Assembly: GCA_025517465.1 (NCBI GenBank)
Contig: JAOPKE010000003.1
Span: forward strand, 372,001 to 436,000
Reading direction: 5' to 3'
Origin: Halobacteria archaeon HArc-gm2
GTDB lineage: Archaea > Halobacteriota > Halobacteria > Halobacteriales > Haloarculaceae
Length of the DNA: 64,000 bases
The notes under the pieces were generated by a model. That model did no database searches and was not told the DNA's origin. It saw only the letters and a program-made list of their open reading frames with translations. This document shows, piece by piece, positions 22,508-32,989 of this stretch. Made by a program: the position numbers and the translations under genes. Numbering within the stretch: position 1 is the stretch's first letter; every line of letters begins with the position of its first letter.

Positions 22508-24244
22508 ATGGACGTCACCACCCTCCGGGAGCGTGCCGACGAGTTGCCGCGCGAGCCGGGGGTCTACCACTTCCTCGCCGACGACGACCGCGTCCTCTAC
22601 GTCGGGAAGGCCGTCGACCTGCGGAGTCGAGTGCGTTCCTACGCCGACCCGCGGTCGGCCCGCATCGGGAAGATGGTGCGCCGCGCCGTCGACGTTGACT
22701 TCGCGGTGACGGACACGGAGACGCAGGCACTCTTGCTGGAGGCGAACTTCATCAAGCGCCACCAGCCGCCGTACAACGTCCGCCTGAAAGACGACAAGTC
22801 CTACCCGCTGGTGCAACTCACCGAACATCCCGTCCCGCGCATCGAGGTGACCCGGGACCCCGACGAGGGCGCGACCGTCTACGGCCCGTTCACGAACAAG
22901 GGCCGCGTCGACACGGTCGTCAAGGCTCTCCGGGAGACCTACGGGCTGCGCGGCTGTTCCGACCACAAGTACTCGAACCGCGACCGGCCGTGTCTCGACT
23001 ACGAGATGGACATCTGCACCGCCCCGTGTACCGGCGAGATAAGCGAAGCGGAGTACCTCGGCGACGTCGAGAGCGTCCGGCGGTTCTTCGAGGGGGAGAC
23101 GGGCGTGCTCGCCGACCCGCTCCGGCGGGCGATGGACGAGGCCGCCCAGGCCACGGAGTTCGAGCGCGCGGCGAACATGCGCGACCGGCTGGCCGCCGTC
23201 GAGGCGCTGGGCGGCGACAGCGATTCGGCCGTCAGCGACACCGCCGACGAGCGGAGCGTCGACGTCCTCGGCGCAGTCCGTGAGGGCGAGCGCGCGACCG
23301 TTGCCCGCCTCCACTCCGAGGACGGCCAGCTCGTCGAGCGGGACCGCTACCGCCTCGACGCGCCCGAGGGTGACGGCGTCGGCGAGGTGCTCGCCGCCTT
23401 CGTACCGCAGTTCTACGCCGAGCGAGACCTCCCCGACGCCATCCTCTGCTCCGAGCACCCTGCCGACGCGGACATCGACGCCTGGCTCGCCGCCGAGAGC
23501 GTCGACCTCCGGGTGCCCGGTGCCGGCCGGGAGGCGACGCTCGTCGACCTCGCACTGAAGAACGCCCGGCGCGGCGGCCCCGCCAGGGACGACACGGCCG
23601 CTCTCGCGGAGGCGCTCAACCTCGACGCCGCCGACCGCATCGAGGGATTCGACGTGAGCCACGCCCAGGGGACGGCCGCCGTCGGGTCGAACGTCACCTT
23701 CGTCGACGGGAGCCCCGAGAAGTCACACTACCGGCGGAAGAAGCTCACCGACGAGAACGACGACTACGCCAACATGCGCGCGCTCGTCCGCTGGCGCGCC
23801 GAACGCGCCGTCGAGGGCCGCGACGACCGGCCAGACCCCGACCTGCTCCTCATCGACGGGGGCCAGGGTCAGCTCGGCGCCGCCCAGGACGCACTCGCCC
23901 TCGTCGGCTGGGACGTCCCGGTCGTCGCGCTGGCGAAGGAAGAAGAGCTGGTGGTCACGCCCGACAGAACCTGCGACTGGGACGACGACGCGCCGCACCT
24001 CCACTTGCTCCAGCGCGTCCGCGACGAGTCTCACCGCTTCGCCGTCCAGTACCACCAGACCGTCCGCGACACCGTCGACACCGTCCTCGACGAGGTACCC
24101 GGCGTCGGGCCGTCGACGCGCAAGCGCCTTCTCCGGCGGTTCGGCAGCGTCGACAGCGTCCGCGAGGCGTCGCTCGACGAACTGCGGACCGTCGACGGCG
24201 TCGGCGACGAGACGGCCACGACTATCGACCGGCACCTGAGTTGA
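22508..24244 (+). CDS. uvrC: Excinuclease ABC subunit C
   Basis: The 578-residue nuclease makes both incisions in nucleotide excision repair with UvrA and UvrB. It has the GIY-YIG domain ([20 protein letters not shown]), a Cys-rich segment ([20 protein letters not shown]...CTAPC), a UVR motif ([20 protein letters not shown]) that binds UvrB, the RNase H-like second nuclease domain ([34 protein letters not shown]) and C-terminal helix-hairpin-helix repeats. Length is normal. Haloarchaea have the full UvrABC set; uvrA and uvrB are not in this window. No operon partner. Confidence 0.96.
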
Positions 24245-24681
24245 GAGCGTCGCCATCGGCGACGTGCAGGGCGTTCCAGAAACAGGTAACGCGTTCGAAA
24301 CGGCCTCACGGGTGCGTCTCGGCCAAAAAAGGTCGAACGGGATTCCGTCACCCCTTGGGTGGTGGTGGGTGGTTGATAGGGGGTGTGAGCGCGGTCGGGT
24401 CCACGCGGCAAGCGCGTTTCCGCTCTGTGGACCCAGCAGGACAGTAACACGTAAACGGGTTCACTATACACCGCATAAGCGTCACCCCCGTGGCCCGCGA
24501 CCGGATCCGACAACCGAACCGGCGCAGTCCACCGGTTTTCGATCGGGTTCGGATCCGTACCTGTTTCGAACTGTCGACGTGGACCGGGCCCGGGAACCCG
24601 TCGGTTTCGACGGACGTGACCGGCCCTTCGGTGGGCGTCCGGACGGACCGAAAACGCGAATCAGCGCCGGCCAGTCGAGAT
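24245..24681. other. Intergenic stretch after uvrC
   Basis: No gene was seen. A run of six A at 24325-24330 and G/T-rich sequence at 24358-24388 follow the uvrC stop; neither forms a clear hairpin terminator. The remainder is high-GC with stops in all frames or unconvincing short ORFs. Confidence 0.5.
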
Positions 24682-25215
24682 TCACCTGGAGCGGAGCCGC
24701 CGTGCCGTCGCGACGACGACGAGGGCGTGTATCGTGAGCACGGTCGGAACTCCGTACGACTGGGCGGCGGGGACGACGTACGCCGTTGCACCGAGGACGA
24801 GGAGCGTCGCGAGACTCACGAACGCGTAGTACGAGGTGTACTCGTCGTCGCCGTCACCGGTGGCCTCGACCTGGAGATGGCGCTCGACCACCGGAAACGC
24901 CGGCCCCGGCCCGACGGTCTTCTCCGCGGAGTCGTACCCGACGACGCCGGCGTCGGCGAGTTTGGGGAGGTGATTCTGGCACAGTGAGATGTAGACGCTG
25001 TCCCGAATGTCGTCCGGTGACGTCTCCTCGTCGCTCACGCGCGTCGCGACGTCGGTGGCCAGCTCCTGGACTGTAGTCGATCCGCCGACCGAGGCCAGAC
25101 ACTGGAGACACGACCTGCGACGCTCGTTACCCAGCAGGTCGAACAACCGCTCTTCGCTGAGACCCGCGTCGCCGTGTGACGGCCCCGCCGCCGTCTCGAT
25201 CCGAGCGCCGTTCAT
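24682..25215 (-). CDS. DUF7344-like winged-helix protein with C-terminal membrane helices
   Basis: The 177-residue protein has an N-terminal winged-helix domain (LSEERLFDLLGNERRRSCLQ, then a recognition region RDSVYISLCQNHLPKLADAG with wing VVGYDSAEKTVG). The wording matches the haloarchaeal DUF7344 pattern: FD.L.N.RRR, YI.L.QNHLPKL...GV..Y. Two C-terminal TM helices follow (YAFVSLATLLVLGATAYVV; VPTVLTIHALVVVATA). This fits a membrane-tethered DNA-binding regulator. It is a paralog of the next minus-strand gene. A TATA-like tattcagt/cagtact region lies at 25216-25240. Confidence 0.75.
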   Translation of the reverse strand: MNGARIETAAGPSHGDAGLSEERLFDLLGNERRRSCLQCLASVGGSTTVQELATDVATRVSDEETSPDDIRDSVYISLCQNHLPKLADAGVVGYDSAEKTVGPGPAFPVVERHLQVEATGDGDDEYTSYYAFVSLATLLVLGATAYVVPAAQSYGVPTVLTIHALVVVATARRLRSR

Positions 25216-25292
25216 ACGATATTCCAGTAGTACTGAATAAAACCTATAGACGGCCTAAGGGTGAATCGTCGGTTCAGTGAGTGTGCCACCGA

Positions 25293-25974
25293 TTACGCGC
25301 CCGCCTCGACGATTGATTCGCGATAATAGTACACGCCAGCCAGCACGGCGACCAGTGCGCCTATCGCGACGGCGACGAGCGCAGCCGGTCCCGCCAGAGT
25401 CGTCGCCGCGTAGACGCTCGCGAGGAGCGCCAGTCCGCCACCGGCAGCGACCAGAGTCGGCTGATCCCAGCCGCCGTCAGTGTCGCTCGCGGAGGTCGCA
25501 TCATCTCGGTTCTGGTCGACCGGGCCCTCGTCGACCGGACCCTCGTTGACTGGGCCTTCGTCGACCGGGCCCTCGTCGGCCGTTTCGGACTCGGGAAGGA
25601 GCGTCGGTTCGTTGACGAGGTACGGGTCGAACTGAGCGGTCCGCGCCGTTCGCTCGACGACGCCACGGTCCTGTTCGTAGTTGATGATACCGTCACGGTC
25701 CATCTTCGGGAGGTGTGACTGATAGAGCGCGATGTACACGCGCTGGCGCTCCTGTGAGCGCAACTGGGCGACCGTCGTGTCGTTCTCGACGGCCGCGATA
25801 GCCTCCGTAACGTCACGCATGTCTGCGGGCCCGTCGTGTTCCTGCAGGTACTTGAGGACCAGTCGGCGACGCCGACACTGAAGGATGTGGAAGACGTCGT
25901 CGCGGTCGAGTCGGTCGGTCGGTCGGTGCCTCTGTCTCCGTGATCAGCGTGGATCCCTCGTGAGTGGAGGACAT
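25293..25974 (-). pseudogene. DUF7344-like membrane regulator frameshifted at a (TCGG)4 repeat (possible phase-variable gene)
   Basis: From an ATG at 25974 the reading starts MSSTHEGSTLITETEAPTDR. The winged-helix domain continues one frame over: DDVFHILQCRRRRLVLKYLQ (from 25901), then RDVTEAIAAVEND, RVYIALYQSHLPKMDRDGII and NYEQDRG. After it come five DEGPV-type pentapeptide repeats, two TM helices and YYYRESIVEAGA at 25293. The two frames meet at four tandem TCGG units (25911-25926, plus strand). Losing one unit (4 nt) joins them exactly as TEAPTDRLDRDDVFHIL. The domain frame alone has a stop at 25944-25946 and no start before Met at 25820. This is either a pseudogene, a contingency locus or a sequencing error. 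Confidence 0.75.
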
Positions 25975-26595
25975 GTTCTACACCCACCTCTATCGACGCC
26001 GGGACCATATACCGGGTCGAACGTTCCCCCCGTGAAACAGTCTTAACACCGCGTATGACCGTTCCAGACGACGGTTTCACCAGTTTCGCCGACCGTCGAC
26101 ACCTGCGACGTGACGTCCGCAGGCCCGAGTAATCCACGCGAGAACGGACGACAGCGGGAAGAGACACCGCAGCTCGACAAGGGACGGGGACGCCCAGTAG
26201 GACGCCAAATGAGGCGATCGTGGCCGCACGACGGCTCCACAGCGACACGCAGGCCATCGACCGGCGCTGGAACCGGTTCCTCCCGAAACAGGCCGCAGCC
26301 TGTCGATTGAAACGACTGAAACAGTCTGGATAGCCGGTTCAGGCGGTGCCAGAGGAGAGTTTCGAGCGGGCTCCACAGGGACACGCCGGAAACGAGACCT
26401 CGGTCAGTCGGCTACGGAGAATCGTGTGCGGGACCTGTCGCGCTTGCCGTAGCTCCGACGGCACGTGCTGGGCAACGAGACGACGCCGAACGGCCATCGG
26501 TCCGGTGGAGACGTGTCGTGATGGAGCTATCGCTGGCGGAGAATCGGCCCCGAACGGTGGGGACGAGCGGTCGAAGCGGTAACGGCTGCGCCGTG
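25975..26595. other. Intergenic stretch upstream of the DUF7344-like gene
   Basis: No gene was seen. It holds a candidate TATA (gtatatgg, minus strand, near 26007-26014) about 36 nt before the ATG at 25974. It also has the 20-nt motif at 26032-26051 that recurs at 32724-32743, and a related word (ctgaaacagtct) near 26309. The rest shows no coding bias that I trust. Confidence 0.5.
26032..26051. promoter_or_regulatory. Shared 20-nt motif, copy 1
   Basis: The sequence gtgaaacagtcttaacaccg matches 18 of 20 positions with 32724-32743. It lies 58 nt upstream of the ATG at 25974, in upstream-activator or operator range. Confidence 0.4.
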
Positions 26596-28410
26596 CTATC
26601 CGCCGGTCGCGGTGCTCACGAGACGAGACGACGACACACCGCCCGGGTCAGTCTGACGGGCGGGCTCCGGCGTCTGTTCGGGGAGGCAGATGAGGTTCTC
26701 CCTGCCGAGAGACACCTTCACGACGTCTCCCTCGTCGTCCATCCGTGAGAGGAGCCTGCTCACCTTCGCTTTCGACCAGGACGTCGAGTCGACGATCTCG
26801 CTCTGTTTCATCTGTCCGCCTTCGGCCTCGAGCATCCGCAAGGTCCGCTCGGCGTCGGTCACCAGCGCGTCCTGGTGGCGCTCGAAGACGTCTCTCGCGG
26901 TCGAAGCGTCGGTCGCCTCCCGTTCCCCGCCGGCGTTGCTCGCCGCCTGAACAGACGCCGCGGGCGGGTCACTGACGCCGGTGGAGTCCTCGGACGGGGA
27001 AGGCTGGCCACGACCACTTCGGAAGACGGATCGGGCCCACGCTCGCGGGCTCCGGTCGATGGTCGAGAGGGCGACGCCGATGCCGAGCAGGAATCCGACC
27101 AGTCCGCTCCCGTACAGCGCCGGCGTGTACGGGTTCGTCGGGTCGAAGCCGAGCTCGGCTTCCGTGCCGTCGGCGATGTAATCACCGTCCGTGTCAGCCA
27201 CGGTCGGATCGGCACCCTGCGCTAGCTCTCGGGCGTCGCCGAGTCCGTCGTCGTCGGTGTCGGCCACGGTCGGGTCAGTGCCTAGACCCGCCTCTCGTCC
27301 GTCGGCGAGCCCGTCGTCGTCGGTGTCGGCCACGGTCGGGTCAGTGCCCGCATCGAGTTCGCGGGCGTCACTGAGCCCGTCGTCGTCAGTGTCGACCAGG
27401 GTCGGATCCGTGCCCAGTTCGACCTCGCGGACGTCGTCCAGCCCGTCACCGTCCGTGTCGACCAGGGTCGGATCGCTACCGAGCTTGGCCTCTCGGGCGT
27501 CGTCCAGCCCGTCGCCGTCTGTGTCGACCTGCGTCACGTTGGCACCGAGTGCGACCTCTCGCCCGTCCTCGAGCCCGTCACCGTCCGTATCCGGTACCGT
27601 CGCGTTCGCACCGAACGCGAGTTCTCGTTCGTCGTCCAGCCCGTCGCCGTCCGTGTCGACGGCCATCGGGTCCGTGCCCAGTTCAACCTCACGGGCGTCG
27701 TCCAGCCCGTCGCCGTCCGTGTCGACGGCCGTCGGGTCCGTGCCCAGTTCGACCTCACGGGCGTCGTCCAGCCCGTCACCGTCCGTGTCGACGGCCGTCG
27801 GGTCCGTGCCCAGTTCGACCTCGCGGGCGTCACCGAGGCCGTCACCGTCCGTATCGGCCAGGACCAGTGAGGTCCCCGCTTCGACCTCTCGCTCGTTGCT
27901 GACACCGTCTCTATCGAGGTCGGCGCCAGGCTCGATTCGCCAGACGGTGACCGTCGCGTTATCGACGGTCCCGCCATCACGCGTGCGCCGTAACGAAACC
28001 GTGACAGACGTCTTGTCCGCGGGCTTGCTGACGTTCGTGAATACGACAGTCTGCTGATCACCGACGTCACGGACCTGTTTGCACGCGCCCGAGCCGAGAC
28101 AAACCTCGTGGTCCGCAGTCGCCACGGTCGACACCGAGACGTCGATCTGCCCGTCAGTCGTGTTCGCTCCGTCCGCCCACACGAAAGCCATCTCGTCCGT
28201 ACGGAAGACGGACTCGTTGACGGTGACCCCCGTAATGGCCGGCGTCGCGTCCGATTCGACCGTCTGTTCCCCGTGACCCGTATCGGTGACTGAGCCCCCC
28301 TGATGTACACCTGCTGCTGCGGCCGCAGTGAACGGCACGATGCTGACCCCCATCAGCACCAGTAGCAGCAGCGGGAATACAGGGTTCATCACCCCCCTTG
28401 GTATTCTCAT
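26596..28410 (-). CDS. Membrane protein with extracellular calcium-binding (TSP3-type) repeats and cytoplasmic winged-helix domain
   Basis: The 604-residue protein has a signal peptide (MNPVFPLLLLVLMGVSIVPF region; start at 28410, or 28389), then an Ig-like domain. Twelve 22-residue repeats of the type DTDGDGLDDAREVELGTDPT (about residues 170-423) form DxDxDG calcium loops as in thrombospondin type 3 repeats. One TM helix follows (GLVGFLLGIGVALS, about 437). The cytoplasmic side has a linker and a winged-helix domain (about 520-574: LRMLEAEGGQMKQSEIVDST, SKAKVSRLLSRMDDEGDVVK, then VSLGREN). The layout suggests a one-component transmembrane regulator that senses calcium, salt or a surface ligand. 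The TATA (ctatatatta) is 37 nt upstream of the ATG. Confidence 0.85.
   Translation of the reverse strand: MRIPRGVMNPVFPLLLLVLMGVSIVPFTAAAAAGVHQGGSVTDTGHGEQTVESDATPAITGVTVNESVFRTDEMAFVWADGANTTDGQIDVSVSTVATADHEVCLGSGACKQVRDVGDQQTVVFTNVSKPADKTSVTVSLRRTRDGGTVDNATVTVWRIEPGADLDRDGVSNEREVEAGTSLVLADTDGDGLGDAREVELGTDPTAVDTDGDGLDDAREVELGTDPTAVDTDGDGLDDAREVELGTDPMAVDTDGDGLDDERELAFGANATVPDTDGDGLEDGREVALGANVTQVDTDGDGLDDAREAKLGSDPTLVDTDGDGLDDVREVELGTDPTLVDTDDDGLSDARELDAGTDPTVADTDDDGLADGREAGLGTDPTVADTDDDGLGDARELAQGADPTVADTDGDYIADGTEAELGFDPTNPYTPALYGSGLVGFLLGIGVALSTIDRSPRAWARSVFRSGRGQPSPSEDSTGVSDPPAASVQAASNAGGEREATDASTARDVFERHQDALVTDAERTLRMLEAEGGQMKQSEIVDSTSWSKAKVSRLLSRMDDEGDVVKVSLGRENLICLPEQTPEPARQTDPGGVSSSRLVSTATGG
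27140..27900 (-). repeat. Tandem 66-bp coding repeats (calcium-binding loops)
   Basis: These are twelve in-frame 66-bp units within the gene at 26596, each encoding a D-x-D-x-D-G loop and an E-x-x-x-G-T-D-P linker. The three units at about 27661-27836 are nearly identical at DNA level, so recent expansion or recombination is likely. Confidence 0.85.
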
Positions 28411-28781
28411 CGGTCTCAGGTATCAGCACATCACCACATAATATATAGCTTTTTACTCCGTAATCTGATATTAAACCCAGGAGAGTGTTATTAGTACCAA
28501 CATACGTCCCAGATAGTCCATCGCCGGCTCTTACAGAGTAGCTCCGGCGTTTTTCGCCCAGATTACGCGATCCGAAGATCCAGGAAAATGAGCGAAAAAT
28601 GCCGAATCGTCGTATATTAATGTTTGGACCGTTTCGCCGAATTGAGTTGAGTTTCGTATCTGATCGCTTATACAACGGCGATTAATACGATATTGTCAGC
28701 CGGGCGTCTGACGGATCGGCGCGCCGCCCGGGTCAGGAGTCACCGACGAGGACGACCGTACACCGCAACGGCTGACAGCAA
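28411..28781. other. A/T-rich intergenic region
   Basis: It contains the promoter of the calcium-repeat regulator (28440-28452) and long A/T-rich tracts (28575-28700) unlike the GC-rich surroundings. No ORF with coding character was seen. Low GC here may mark a junction of transferred DNA at the start of the glycan island. Confidence 0.5.
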
Positions 28782-30527
28782 TCAGCCGGTCAACCAGCCA
28801 GTCAGTTCGTGTTCGTCCCGCTTCCCGTCGAGGAGTTCGACCGGACGGACCGGGCAGTGGGCCGTCGCCGAATCGAGCCACGTCGTGATGTCGTTGATCC
28901 GGAGCTTCAGCCGCCACGGGAGCTTCTGGACCACCGGGTCCTCGCCGAAGTTCACGCGGTCCAGATCCGTCTGGTCGTAGAGGGCGCCCCGATCCGGCCA
29001 TGGCCCCTCGTAACCGGAGACGAACGGGAGCTTTCGGCGAACGAAGTTGGTGATCTGGTTGATGGTGAACGAGTCGGTGGGCCTGTCCGGCGGGCGGTGC
29101 CGCAACATGTCCTCGTCGAGTTTTCGAAGCGCCCGCAGAAACGTCCGCGTGTTCCGATGCTCGGGGGGCGTCGCGAGGTGCCACTCGATCAGTTCCGCGT
29201 CGAGCATGACGCAGGATTCGACGAAGTGGTCAGCGAGGTGGTAGCGAAACGACCTGGTCGGCTGGTTCTGGACGCCGATCAGTGCCATTCCGTTGTAGGG
29301 GTTGTCGAATCGATCGCCCCACTCTTCGTAGAGTTCGCGTATGCGGCGCCGGACGAGCGATTTCCTGGATTCGTCGTACCGGTCGTTCGTCGCCGCCAGG
29401 TGCCGACACTCCCCGAGGAACCCGAACGTCTCGATCAGATGGTCGACCACGTTCGGGTCCTGTGTCAGGCGATAGGGCGGGAACGTGTGGTCGAGGAGGT
29501 CGATGCCGTCGACCGGTAGAAAGTGGCCGTGGAGGAGTGAATCGGCCATGGCGCCGTGGTAAATCGTCGTGACGTCCATCTGGTCGACGTAACTTGCGTG
29601 GTGGGCGTGAAGGGACTCTACTATCCCGTAGCCGTACTGGATGTCGTCGATGTCCGTGTTCAGGTACGACTCGTCTGGAACGAGCGTCGCGTGAGAGACG
29701 TCGTACTGGTCGGCCAGCGCCGCCGCGACGCCGACCTCCGCGTCGTCCCGCCCCCCGAGGGTGAACGCCGATTCGATGTCGGGGATCCCGGCCAGAACCG
29801 CTCGCGAGTCGTACCCGGCACTCAGGAGCATCCCCTTCCGCCCGGGAAGACGAGCGCGTCGTTCGAACGCCCGCTCCAGCCTGTTCGCCAGTTCGCTCAC
29901 GTAGTCGAACTCGCGTGGTTGATAGACGAACCGCTGGAGCGTCTCGGTCGACGTTGCCGTGATATAACCGTCGAAGGGGACCCGCGACAGGCCGTCGAGG
30001 GTCGTTCGGTTCTCGAAGACGAAGCCGAGAGCGAGAAACTCGTCCAGGGGCTCGGCGGCCACCTCCGGTGACGGGATCGTTCGCGCGACCGTCGCCGCGT
30101 CGGTCCCGAAACAGCGCGTGGCGGACGCGTCCGCGTAGTAACACTCCCAGCTCCGGACGGGATCGGTCCCGACGATCGCCTCACGGTCGACGTGGTCGAC
30201 GACGGCCAGAAAGGAGCCGTTGAGACCGGCGAGCGCGTCCGTCCCGCGACGGCCGAATGCATCGAGCAACCACGCGGCGGGGTCGGTCTGGTCGGTGTTC
30301 CGGAGGTACACCTCGCCCCAGATGACGCAGACGCCGTCTTCGTCCTCGACGGCCGCCGAGCGCCCGTACATCCCGAGCGCCGGGTCGCGAATGCCGACCG
30401 TCACGCTCGGCCCCTCGAGTACCCGGTCGAATGCCGACGGCTGCCGGTGTCGCTCGAACGTCGACCGGGGGCCGAACGTCCCGAACAGCTCCTTGTTCGG
30501 GCGCGTGGACCCCTGCGAGTGAGACAT
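28782..30527 (-). CDS. Asparagine-synthase-like protein lacking the glutaminase cysteine
   Basis: The 581-residue product starts at MSHSQGSTRPNKELFGTFGP; a GTG three codons upstream is possible. The N-terminal class II amidotransferase-like fold is present (VCVIWGEVYLRNTDQTD; ALAGLNGSFLAVVDHVDREA, where true AsnB has FNGMFAF). There is no Cys at position 2, so it cannot hydrolyse glutamine that way. The synthase half has a PP-loop variant LLSAGYDSRAVLA, suggesting ATP activation of a carboxylate. It starts 12 nt after the glmS stop, so the two are probably co-transcribed. Such proteins in glycan clusters may amidate uronic acids; this is inference. Confidence 0.75.
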   Translation of the reverse strand: MSHSQGSTRPNKELFGTFGPRSTFERHRQPSAFDRVLEGPSVTVGIRDPALGMYGRSAAVEDEDGVCVIWGEVYLRNTDQTDPAAWLLDAFGRRGTDALAGLNGSFLAVVDHVDREAIVGTDPVRSWECYYADASATRCFGTDAATVARTIPSPEVAAEPLDEFLALGFVFENRTTLDGLSRVPFDGYITATSTETLQRFVYQPREFDYVSELANRLERAFERRARLPGRKGMLLSAGYDSRAVLAGIPDIESAFTLGGRDDAEVGVAAALADQYDVSHATLVPDESYLNTDIDDIQYGYGIVESLHAHHASYVDQMDVTTIYHGAMADSLLHGHFLPVDGIDLLDHTFPPYRLTQDPNVVDHLIETFGFLGECRHLAATNDRYDESRKSLVRRRIRELYEEWGDRFDNPYNGMALIGVQNQPTRSFRYHLADHFVESCVMLDAELIEWHLATPPEHRNTRTFLRALRKLDEDMLRHRPPDRPTDSFTINQITNFVRRKLPFVSGYEGPWPDRGALYDQTDLDRVNFGEDPVVQKLPWRLKLRINDITTWLDSATAHCPVRPVELLDGKRDEHELTGWLTG

Positions 30528-30539
30528 TACAGACACACC

Positions 30540-32357
30540 TCACTCGACGGTGACACTCTTCGCCAGGTTACGAGGTTTGTCGATCGAACGACCGAACCTG
30601 TCGGCCGTGTGGTAGGCCACGAGCTGGAGCTGGACGTTCGCGAGCAGCCCCTGGCAGACGGGATGGGTATCCGGAACAGTGAGATGTGCGTCGGAGATCT
30701 GCACGCCCGCACTGTCCGGGGGCCCGACGGCGATGATCTCCGCACCCCGGGTCTGGGCCTCCTGGGCGTTCGTCACCGTCTTCTCCGTCTCCTCGCCGGT
30801 GAACAGCGCGAAGATGGGCGTCTCGGGAGTGACGAGCGCGAGCGGGCCGTGTTTGAGCTGACCCGAAGCGAAGCCCTCCGCGTGCTCGTAGGTGATCTCC
30901 TTGAACTTGAGCGCCCCTTCGAGGGCGACGGAGCGCGCCAGGCCCCGGCCGATGAAGAAGTACGACTCGTAGTCGATGATTCGGTCGGCGAGCCGTTCGG
31001 CCTGGTCCAGTTCCATCACTTGCTCGACGTCCTCTGGAAGCCGTTCGAGAGCGGCGAGCAGGTCGGCGAGGTCCTCGCGCGGCGAGGCGCCGTCGATCTC
31101 ACCGGCCACGACCTGGGAGAGGAGCGTCAGCGTGACCGCCTGCGAGGTGAACGTCTTCGTCGCTGCGACCCCGATCTCGGGACCGGCTCTGATGTACAGC
31201 GTCTCGTCGGCCTCGCGTGCTGCAGTCGACCCGACGACGTTCGTCACGGCCACCGTCGGTGCGCCGTGAGCGCTGGCCTCTCTGAGCGCCGAGAGCGTGT
31301 CCGCGGTCTCGCCGCTCTGGGTCACCGCGACGGTCAGCGTCCCGCCGGCGATCGGACCCGCCGATTCGACGTACTCGCTGGCCCGGATCGCTCGCGACGG
31401 CACGCCCGCCTCGTTCAGCAGTCGAGACGCGTAGAGGGCAGCGTGGTACGACGTCCCGCAGGCGACGAAGTGGACCTGCGTGACCGGGTCGAGGACGTCG
31501 AGGTCGAACTCCTCGAACGTGATCGCCCCGTTACGGGCGTCGACGCGGCCCCGGATGGCGTTCGCGAGCGAGGTCGGCTGTTCGTGGATCTCCTTGAGCA
31601 TGTAGTGGTCGTAGGCGCCCTTTCCGGCCTCTTCGGGGTCCCACTCGACCGTCTCGACGTCGCGCGAGACCGGCTCACCGTCGGTGTCGGTCATCGCGAC
31701 GCTGGTCGGCGTCAGGACCACGACGTCGCCGTCCTCGAGGTAGACGACACGGTCGGTGTGCTCGAGGAAGGCGGGGATGTCGCTGGCGAGGAAGTACTGC
31801 TCGTCGCCGACGCCGAGCACGAGCGGGGAGCCCTTTCTGGTCGCGTACACGGCGTCCTCGCCCTCGAACATCGCGGCGATGGCGTAACTCCCCTCGAGTT
31901 CGTCGACAGCACGTCGGAACGCGGCCTCCGGGTCGGCGACCTCGTCGCGGTAGTAGTCGATCAGGTGGGGGACCACTTCCGTGTCGGTCTCGCTCGTGAA
32001 CTGGTGGCCCGCATCGACGAGCCGTTCCCGGATCGCCCGGTGGTTCTCGATGACGCCGTTGTGGACGACGGCGACGTCACCGGACTGGCTCGTGTGCGGG
32101 TGCGCGTTCTCGTCCGTCGGCGGGCCGTGCGTGCTCCAGCGGGTGTGGCCGATCCCGACCTCACCGGTCGGTGCAGCGGACTGGATCTCCGATTTGACCG
32201 CCGAGATCTCGCCCGCCTGCTTGTGGACCGACAGGCCGGATCCGTTCTGGATAGCGAGCCCAGCCGAATCGTACCCGCGGTATTCGAGCCGTTCGAGGCC
32301 CGTGACGAGGTGGCCGACAGCGTCGTCGTGGCCGACGCGGGCGATGATCCCACACAT
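30540..32357 (-). CDS. glmS: Glutamine--fructose-6-phosphate aminotransferase (isomerizing)
   Basis: The 605-residue enzyme converts fructose-6-P and glutamine to glucosamine-6-P, the entry to UDP-GlcNAc. The start is fixed by the N-terminal nucleophile: MCGIIARVGHDDA with Cys2, which must be processed. Glutaminase motifs RLEYRGYDSAGLA, GHTRWSTHGPPTDENAHPH and HNGVIENH are intact. Two SIS domains follow (ACGTSYHAALYASRLLNEA; SQSGETADTLSALREA; GRGLARSVALEGALKFKEIT), ending KPRNLAKSVTVE. It opens the operon with the asparagine-synthase-like gene and supplies amino sugar for the glycan island. A TATA-like tactattg lies about 75 nt upstream. Confidence 0.97.
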   Translation of the reverse strand: MCGIIARVGHDDAVGHLVTGLERLEYRGYDSAGLAIQNGSGLSVHKQAGEISAVKSEIQSAAPTGEVGIGHTRWSTHGPPTDENAHPHTSQSGDVAVVHNGVIENHRAIRERLVDAGHQFTSETDTEVVPHLIDYYRDEVADPEAAFRRAVDELEGSYAIAAMFEGEDAVYATRKGSPLVLGVGDEQYFLASDIPAFLEHTDRVVYLEDGDVVVLTPTSVAMTDTDGEPVSRDVETVEWDPEEAGKGAYDHYMLKEIHEQPTSLANAIRGRVDARNGAITFEEFDLDVLDPVTQVHFVACGTSYHAALYASRLLNEAGVPSRAIRASEYVESAGPIAGGTLTVAVTQSGETADTLSALREASAHGAPTVAVTNVVGSTAAREADETLYIRAGPEIGVAATKTFTSQAVTLTLLSQVVAGEIDGASPREDLADLLAALERLPEDVEQVMELDQAERLADRIIDYESYFFIGRGLARSVALEGALKFKEITYEHAEGFASGQLKHGPLALVTPETPIFALFTGEETEKTVTNAQEAQTRGAEIIAVGPPDSAGVQISDAHLTVPDTHPVCQGLLANVQLQLVAYHTADRFGRSIDKPRNLAKSVTVE

Positions 32358-32989
32358 CAGCCCGACACCTCCACGCACCGAGTCGGTACGCGCCCCGTCG
32401 CTATCGATCGCCTGGCCGTCCGTTCGGCTGCAATAGTATTCTTCGCGCGCGCACGCGAAAGAAATTCCGATTCGCAGTCGCCGTGGTGGATATGTGTGGT
32501 GGCCATTGGTCTCTCAGTGTCGCCGCAAGGGCGGCAGTGTCACAGTTAACATCGTACCGAACCATACCTAATGACGGTCTAATCGGACGATACACGCCGT
32601 CGGCGGTGACGGAGTCAGCCCAGTTCGGGACGTACTGGTCCAGGCACCGGTGCCGCCAGAGGGCGCCCGCCCGGGAATCCAAACGGCGAACGTACCGGGT
32701 GGCAACCGACCATCGATCGGTTGGTGAAACGGTCTTAACAGCGTGTTAAACCCGGGATCAACTGTTTCTCGGGCACGCGACCGTTCGCGAGACGGACGAA
32801 TGCCGCAAAAATTGGTGTATAGCACCCCCTTCACCGGAAATTCTGGCTTATCCGCTGTATAGGAATGGGTCGGTACGCCTCAGGAAGTAACGAGTTCGGC
32901 CCGGCCGCGGACTGCCACAGCCGCAACCCAGGCGACGACCGGTGCGGCGACGTGGTCGTGTCCCAGCCGGCCGACGAAGACCAGACACC
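32358..32989. other. Divergent regulatory region between glmS and the sugar dehydrogenase
   Basis: No gene was seen. It holds the second copy of the shared motif (32724-32743) overlapping a perfect dyad ttaaca/tgttaa (32735-32749), and two candidate TATA boxes for the rightward operon (gtgtatagc near 32815, ctgtatagg near 32858), each implying a leader of about 100 nt or more. The glmS promoter lies near 32430-32440. Confidence 0.5.
32724..32749. promoter_or_regulatory. Shared 20-nt motif, copy 2, with TTAACA dyad
   Basis: Positions 32724-32743 match 26032-26051 at 18 of 20. It runs into ttaacagcgtgttaa, a perfect 6-3-6 dyad typical of a dimeric repressor site. It lies between two divergent sugar-metabolism operons. 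Confidence 0.45.

Follow-up and report, generated by a model that had tools for sequence, protein, structure and literature searches.

The locus raises the question of what a haloarchaeal protein that joins calcium-binding-type repeats to a DNA-binding-type domain might sense, and what it might switch. The window (the whole stretch of DNA analyzed, 64,000 nucleotides from Halobacteria archaeon HArc-gm2) carries on its minus strand an ORF at positions 26596-28410 (604 codons with an ATG start, 604 aa), hereafter referred to as the regulator. From the N-terminus, the encoded protein comprises a signal-like segment, an eight-stranded beta-sandwich, 12 thrombospondin-3-type (TSP3) repeats, one transmembrane (TM) helix, a disordered linker, and a winged helix-turn-helix (wHTH) domain, located as follows.

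28306-28410, minus strand: signal peptide or N-terminal hydrophobic segment, aa 1-35 (Kyte-Doolittle 2.34 at aa 14-32, preceded by two Arg)
27934-28239, minus strand: N-terminal beta-sandwich, aa 58-159, with the conserved Cys pair C104/C110 (eight AlphaFold2 strands; weak PDB fold matches; two Cys in 28 of 28 relatives)
27130-27921, minus strand: 12 TSP3 (TSP3_bac) repeats, aa 164-427 (PF18884, 1.3e-48; 22-aa period, full ligand pattern)
27658-27855, minus strand: repeats 2-4, near-identical as DNA (86-95% pairwise identity)
27061-27126, minus strand: TM helix, aa 429-450 (hydropathy; positive-inside bias in 28 relatives; AlphaFold2 helix)
26866-27060, minus strand: linker, mostly disordered, aa 451-515 (AlphaFold2 pLDDT below 50 over aa 457-501)
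26680-26865, minus strand: DUF7343 wHTH, aa 516-577 (PF24034, 1.1e-26; AlphaFold2 pLDDT 92-96; PDB fold matches)

The regulator belongs to both TSP3_bac (PF18884; 162.9 bits, curated cut-off 25) and DUF7343 (PF24034; 92.9 bits, curated cut-off 27.6). Its scores against HTH_IclR (20.4 bits, cut-off 22) and MarR_2 (19 bits, cut-off 27) leave it outside the IclR and MarR families; relatives above an IclR/MarR Pfam cut-off exist, for example L055 and L117. The repeats start at aa 164, 186, 208, and so on to 406, each is exactly 22 aa long, and D1, D3, D5, D/N9, and E12 are present in all 12. The Ca2+ ligand residues thus appear complete throughout the array, and Ca2+ binding is predicted. An AlphaFold2 model built on an alignment of 15 homologs showed the eight-stranded beta-sandwich, 12 loop-helix repeats (mostly pLDDT 93-98), a TM helix at aa 429-450, and the wHTH (pLDDT 92-96). 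When compared with PDB folds, the sandwich weakly matched IPT/TIG, PKD, and SoxY beta-sandwiches, and the C-terminus matched MarR-type HsmR-DNA and AspA/pNOB8 centromere-binding proteins; a PDB search with the whole model ranked just loose beta-sandwich and wHTH matches. The top match in a viral fold library was unnamed, with 46% identity over 144 alignment columns. An Rfam scan of window positions 24000-31000 gave no match.

Two hydrophobic stretches were found in the regulator, at aa 14-32 (signal-like) and aa 431-449, and none of 28 homologs had a further TM-like segment beyond residue 40. Summed over these homologs, Lys and Arg numbered 9 in the 15 residues before the TM segment and 80 in the 15 residues after it, and the outer domain had exactly two cysteines in every case. 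Because of this positive-inside bias, the outer Cys pair, and the signal-like N-terminus, the predicted topology, with the ectodomain outside and the wHTH inside, is well supported by sequence and strongly inferred. An earlier sequence-only reading had proposed the same arrangement, with 12 TSP3-type repeats outside and a single TM segment leading to an inner winged helix, and both points held. The regulator combines a predicted DNA-binding domain and at least one TM segment in one chain, as in transmembrane transcription regulators (TTRs); its domain order is the reverse of that of ToxR-like proteins, which have an N-terminal cytoplasmic wHTH and a C-terminal extracytoplasmic domain. The protein is a predicted TTR, of a class already known, whose TSP3 ectodomain appears not to have been described before.

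The full architecture was found in about two dozen of 146 same-family genomes, mostly in genus g3 (Haloarcula). Some 20 other species conserve it, with identities of about 43-49%, which indicates that it did not arise by chance. Further examples come from Halorussus, Halovivax, Halorarius, and other families of the order, and the repeat number differs between genera (about 5-13). DUF7343 is also widespread in shorter proteins whose N-terminal parts differ; one of these, a paralog encoded in the same genome (L003), has the order DUF7345-TM-DUF7343, and DUF7343 therefore looks like a membrane-anchored output module that takes various sensors. In genome G029, a 1.7-kb run of N (L155:1777-3477) lies just upstream of the DUF7344-1 ortholog (see below), at the place and of the size expected for a TSP3 regulator; the assembly either has a gap at the repeats there or was masked over this stretch.

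The near-identity of three DNA repeats had been noted from the sequence and taken as a sign of ongoing change in repeat number. The near-identity is real: repeats 2, 3, and 4 are 86-95% identical as DNA, and repeat 8 is 83-89% identical to them, compared with 55-77% for most other pairs. The proposed change in number was not supported, since 12 repeats are present in both the window and its sister genome (G064), and 15 of 17 Haloarcula orthologs have 11 repeats with one common spacing pattern (the other two, G025 and G022, have 12). Drift in repeat number is thus rejected for close relatives. Repeat 8 is only 86% identical between the sisters, whereas repeats 1, 5, and 6 are 98-100% identical, and repeats 3 and 8 are 98% identical within G064. 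With the number constant, these values indicate that the recent process is apparently homogenization of repeats 3, 4, and 8.

Codon changes between the sister species were distributed unevenly over the protein. Non-synonymous and synonymous changes numbered 0 and 3 in the wHTH, 11 and 4 in the outer domain, and 13 and 27 in the repeats, making the wHTH the most conserved part of the regulator and the beta-sandwich tip the fastest to change. The wHTH helix WSKAKVSRLLS is near-invariant, which, together with the lack of non-synonymous changes, agrees with the earlier view that the winged helix looks DNA-binding. Such a pattern would be expected if the DNA target is fixed, the tip diversifies, and the rod is constrained, and the tip may be the sensor.

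The sequence-only reading had favored direct sensing of calcium or salt. In such a model, the array would fill cooperatively with Ca2+ or other divalent ions, stiffening or shortening the rod and altering the wHTH across the membrane. Consistent with this, the ligand set is kept in 12 of 12 repeats, the ligand columns are invariant in most orthologs, and profile matches include EF-hand proteins, lanmodulin, and the Ca-regulated Staphylococcus Bap. However, brines hold millimolar Ca2+ or more, so the sites are likely saturated. Other TSP3 arrays encoded in the same genome (L002, L005, and L007) lie in open frames in which no wHTH was matched, and the tip, rather than the rod, evolves fastest; the array thus has no specific support as a Ca2+ sensor. 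In L121, a homolog in which the outer domain and the wHTH are both kept, the array consists of no more than about three degenerate repeats. That the array itself senses Ca2+ is a possibility that we consider unlikely. A fast-evolving outer domain on a saturated, rigid stalk fits these observations equally well or better. A more speculative version, which we regard as quite improbable, has the string of 5-13 Ca2+ sites transduce a mechanical or ionic input: outside divalent-ion strength or envelope tension would directly set the tethered wHTH at one helically phased operator and so switch a cascade of membrane-anchored wHTH proteins.

The genes and the promoter element next to the regulator may bear on its output, and the sequence-only reading, supported on topology and the DNA-binding-like wHTH and not supported on repeat number, had missed both.

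26007-26087, minus strand: conserved promoter element, with GAAAC/GGAAC half-sites from 26087, 26078, 26065, and 26027 and TATAT at 26011-26007 (footprint, spacing, genome uniqueness)
25293-25974, minus strand: DUF7344-1 gene (wHTH and TM segments), its reading frame disrupted by an insertion of 4 bp at 25912-25927 (Pfam on the remnant and the intact G064 copy; alignment, frame check)
24682-25215, minus strand: DUF7344-2 gene (wHTH and TM segments), intact (PF24035, 7.6e-25; conserved neighbor)

The regulator usually has one or two same-strand DUF7344 genes downstream, and two are present in the window. A downstream DUF7344 gene was detected by blastp in the window, in G064, and in nine of 10 further Haloarcula/g1 regions; in the tenth (Haloarcula salina, L058), it was recovered by an HMM search. 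Such a gene is also present downstream in Halorussus, Halovivax, and G361. Exceptions are G138, G088, and G249, which have a TSP3 regulator but lack the canonical DUF7344 arrangement, and G423, in which the DUF7344 gene is upstream instead. An AlphaFold2 model of DUF7344-1 (L052 copy) had a mean pLDDT of 48.7 and was set aside. At window positions 25912-25927, near the DUF7344-1 start, the tract (CGGT)4 has one copy more than the three in G064, and the extra 4 bp break the frame of a gene that is otherwise conserved. The extra copy could mean that the gene is a pseudogene or that this is a slippage-prone on/off tract, or it could be an assembly error. Because DUF7344-1 is frameshifted, the regulator-DUF7344 circuit may be broken in the window genome. 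The DUF7344-1 linker also contains a 15-bp tandem repeat of 4.5 copies (25515-25582), encoding GPVDE-like repeats.

Sequence footprinting upstream of DUF7344-1 identified a conserved element, with the Haloarcula form TGAAACAGTCGCAACCGGCGGAACAGTCGACCCGGTATAT. The spacing of its GRAAC half-sites is 18 bp in most Haloarcula, 28 bp in G025, G022, G063, and G019, and 38 bp in G000 and G064, in steps of 10 bp, or about one helical turn. TATAT lies 25-32 bp upstream of the DUF7344-1 ATG, a position that would suit a leaderless haloarchaeal promoter. We searched 77 genomes with a 21-base pattern from the proximal part of the element, allowing one mismatch. Eight genomes had one match each, with seven of these matches at the regulator locus, and a reversed-pattern control gave zero matches. 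The strict element was absent from 655 kb of DUF7343 loci that lack TSP3, and inspection by eye of the regulator's own upstream region revealed no obvious copy. Variant forms are found upstream of DUF7344 in Halorussus and Halovivax. The element is a candidate operator that the regulator, rather than DUF7344, may bind, and DUF7344 autoregulation or another factor could also account for it.

The protein might instead be mainly a surface adhesin or contact sensor, with the element a DUF7344 autoregulatory site and DUF7343 acting elsewhere or weakly. TSP3 rods are known in adhesins and motility proteins (the CglD and MtsD NCBIfam matches to the regulator were sub-threshold), and the wHTH of DUF7344-1 is itself nearly invariant. 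This explanation leaves unaccounted for the wHTH as the most conserved part of the regulator, and the element tracks the regulator locus and was not seen at distant DUF7344 paralogs, all of which makes it rather unlikely.

To the reading that we favor, a one-component tethered regulator that switches the adjacent DUF7344-1 promoter, with the tip receiving the signal and the TSP3 array serving as a Ca-loaded stalk, we assign about an even chance. The sequence itself shows the architecture, its conservation, the neighboring genes, and the promoter footprint on which this reading builds. The exceptional loci (G138, G088, G249, and G423), the failure to see an obvious element copy upstream of the regulator, and the DUF7344-1 frameshift in the window count against it. 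The signal peptide would export an Ig-like beta-sandwich borne on a rod of 12 TSP3 repeats, which probably hold Ca2+ constitutively in brine and would act as a rigid spacer keeping the tip off the membrane. On the cytoplasmic side, a MarR/IclR-like winged helix would be tethered by the single TM helix through a flexible linker. The tip or the whole ectodomain may take a surface signal, such as a ligand, contact with a cell, the state of the envelope, or divalent ions, and this signal would alter the pairing (putative dimerization) of the tethered wHTH. The wHTH would act through the phased GRAAC half-sites that immediately precede the DUF7344-1 TATA box. Its output would be further wHTH proteins anchored in the membrane, in a local cascade. 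Alternatively, signal-dependent proteolysis in or beside the membrane could free the wHTH as a soluble factor, for which the disordered linker of about 50 residues between the TM helix and the wHTH would be suited. We consider this very unlikely, as no protease gene was identified among the annotated conserved neighbors and an adjacent, single-copy target element suits a tethered factor.

The favored reading, a tethered one-component regulator, has parallels and differences among known systems. ToxR/CadC-like receptors share one TM segment, an extracytoplasmic sensor, and a tethered winged helix, but have the DNA-binding domain at the N-terminus, the reverse polarity, and a different wHTH family. 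L003 shares the secreted N-terminus, single TM segment, and C-terminal DUF7343, but has a DUF7345 ectodomain in place of the beta-sandwich and TSP3 array, which suggests that sensor modules have been swapped onto DUF7343. Staphylococcal Bap (PDB 7c7r; PMC4915627) has a short Ca-binding-type repeat segment that resembles the TSP3 array; unlike the regulator, it is an adhesin and biofilm protein. TTRs, defined by a predicted TM segment and a predicted DNA-binding domain in one protein, are most commonly single-pass and include archaeal members (Demey et al. 2023, PMC10269533). The regulator shares that one-chain combination and differs in its C-terminal DUF7343 wHTH and TSP3-rod ectodomain; the words "calcium" and "IclR" do not occur in the survey text. 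ArnR/ArnR1 of Sulfolobus acidocaldarius (PMC6396743), as described in PMC13286277, is likewise an archaeal membrane-bound one-component regulator, but is crenarchaeal, with an N-terminal HTH and a different ectodomain. Membrane-bound one-component regulators are thus already known in bacteria and archaea (PMC10269533; PMC6396743).

In the literature searched, we found no mention of DUF7343 or DUF7344, no TSP3 paper when TSP3 was combined with haloarchaeal terms, and no account of a C-terminal wHTH that carries a TSP3-rod ectodomain and is accompanied by a conserved partner gene and a phased element. What is new here is the downstream DUF7344 gene or genes and the conserved element with its GRAAC spacing; in our best reading, the regulator would be a local switch for the DUF7344 genes. 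Archaeal surface sensing is poorly known, and the locus offers a compact, conserved unit in culturable Haloarcula: an exported sensor, a tethered wHTH, a candidate operator with an 18/28/38-bp spacing code, and adjacent candidate targets. Tentative functions would follow for two unnamed Pfam families, DUF7343 and DUF7344.

Two further observations concern the surroundings of the locus and the same genome. An asparagine-synthase-like gene (28782-30536) and a glmS-like gene (30540-32378) lie upstream of the regulator, and blastp found matches to them, similarly placed, in G064, G025, G022, and G063. Among the other TSP3 arrays of the genome, those of L005 and L007 lie within open frames of 1758 and 2134 codons, and L002 encodes a secreted-looking protein of 411 aa with a HELLH motif, possibly a metalloprotease.
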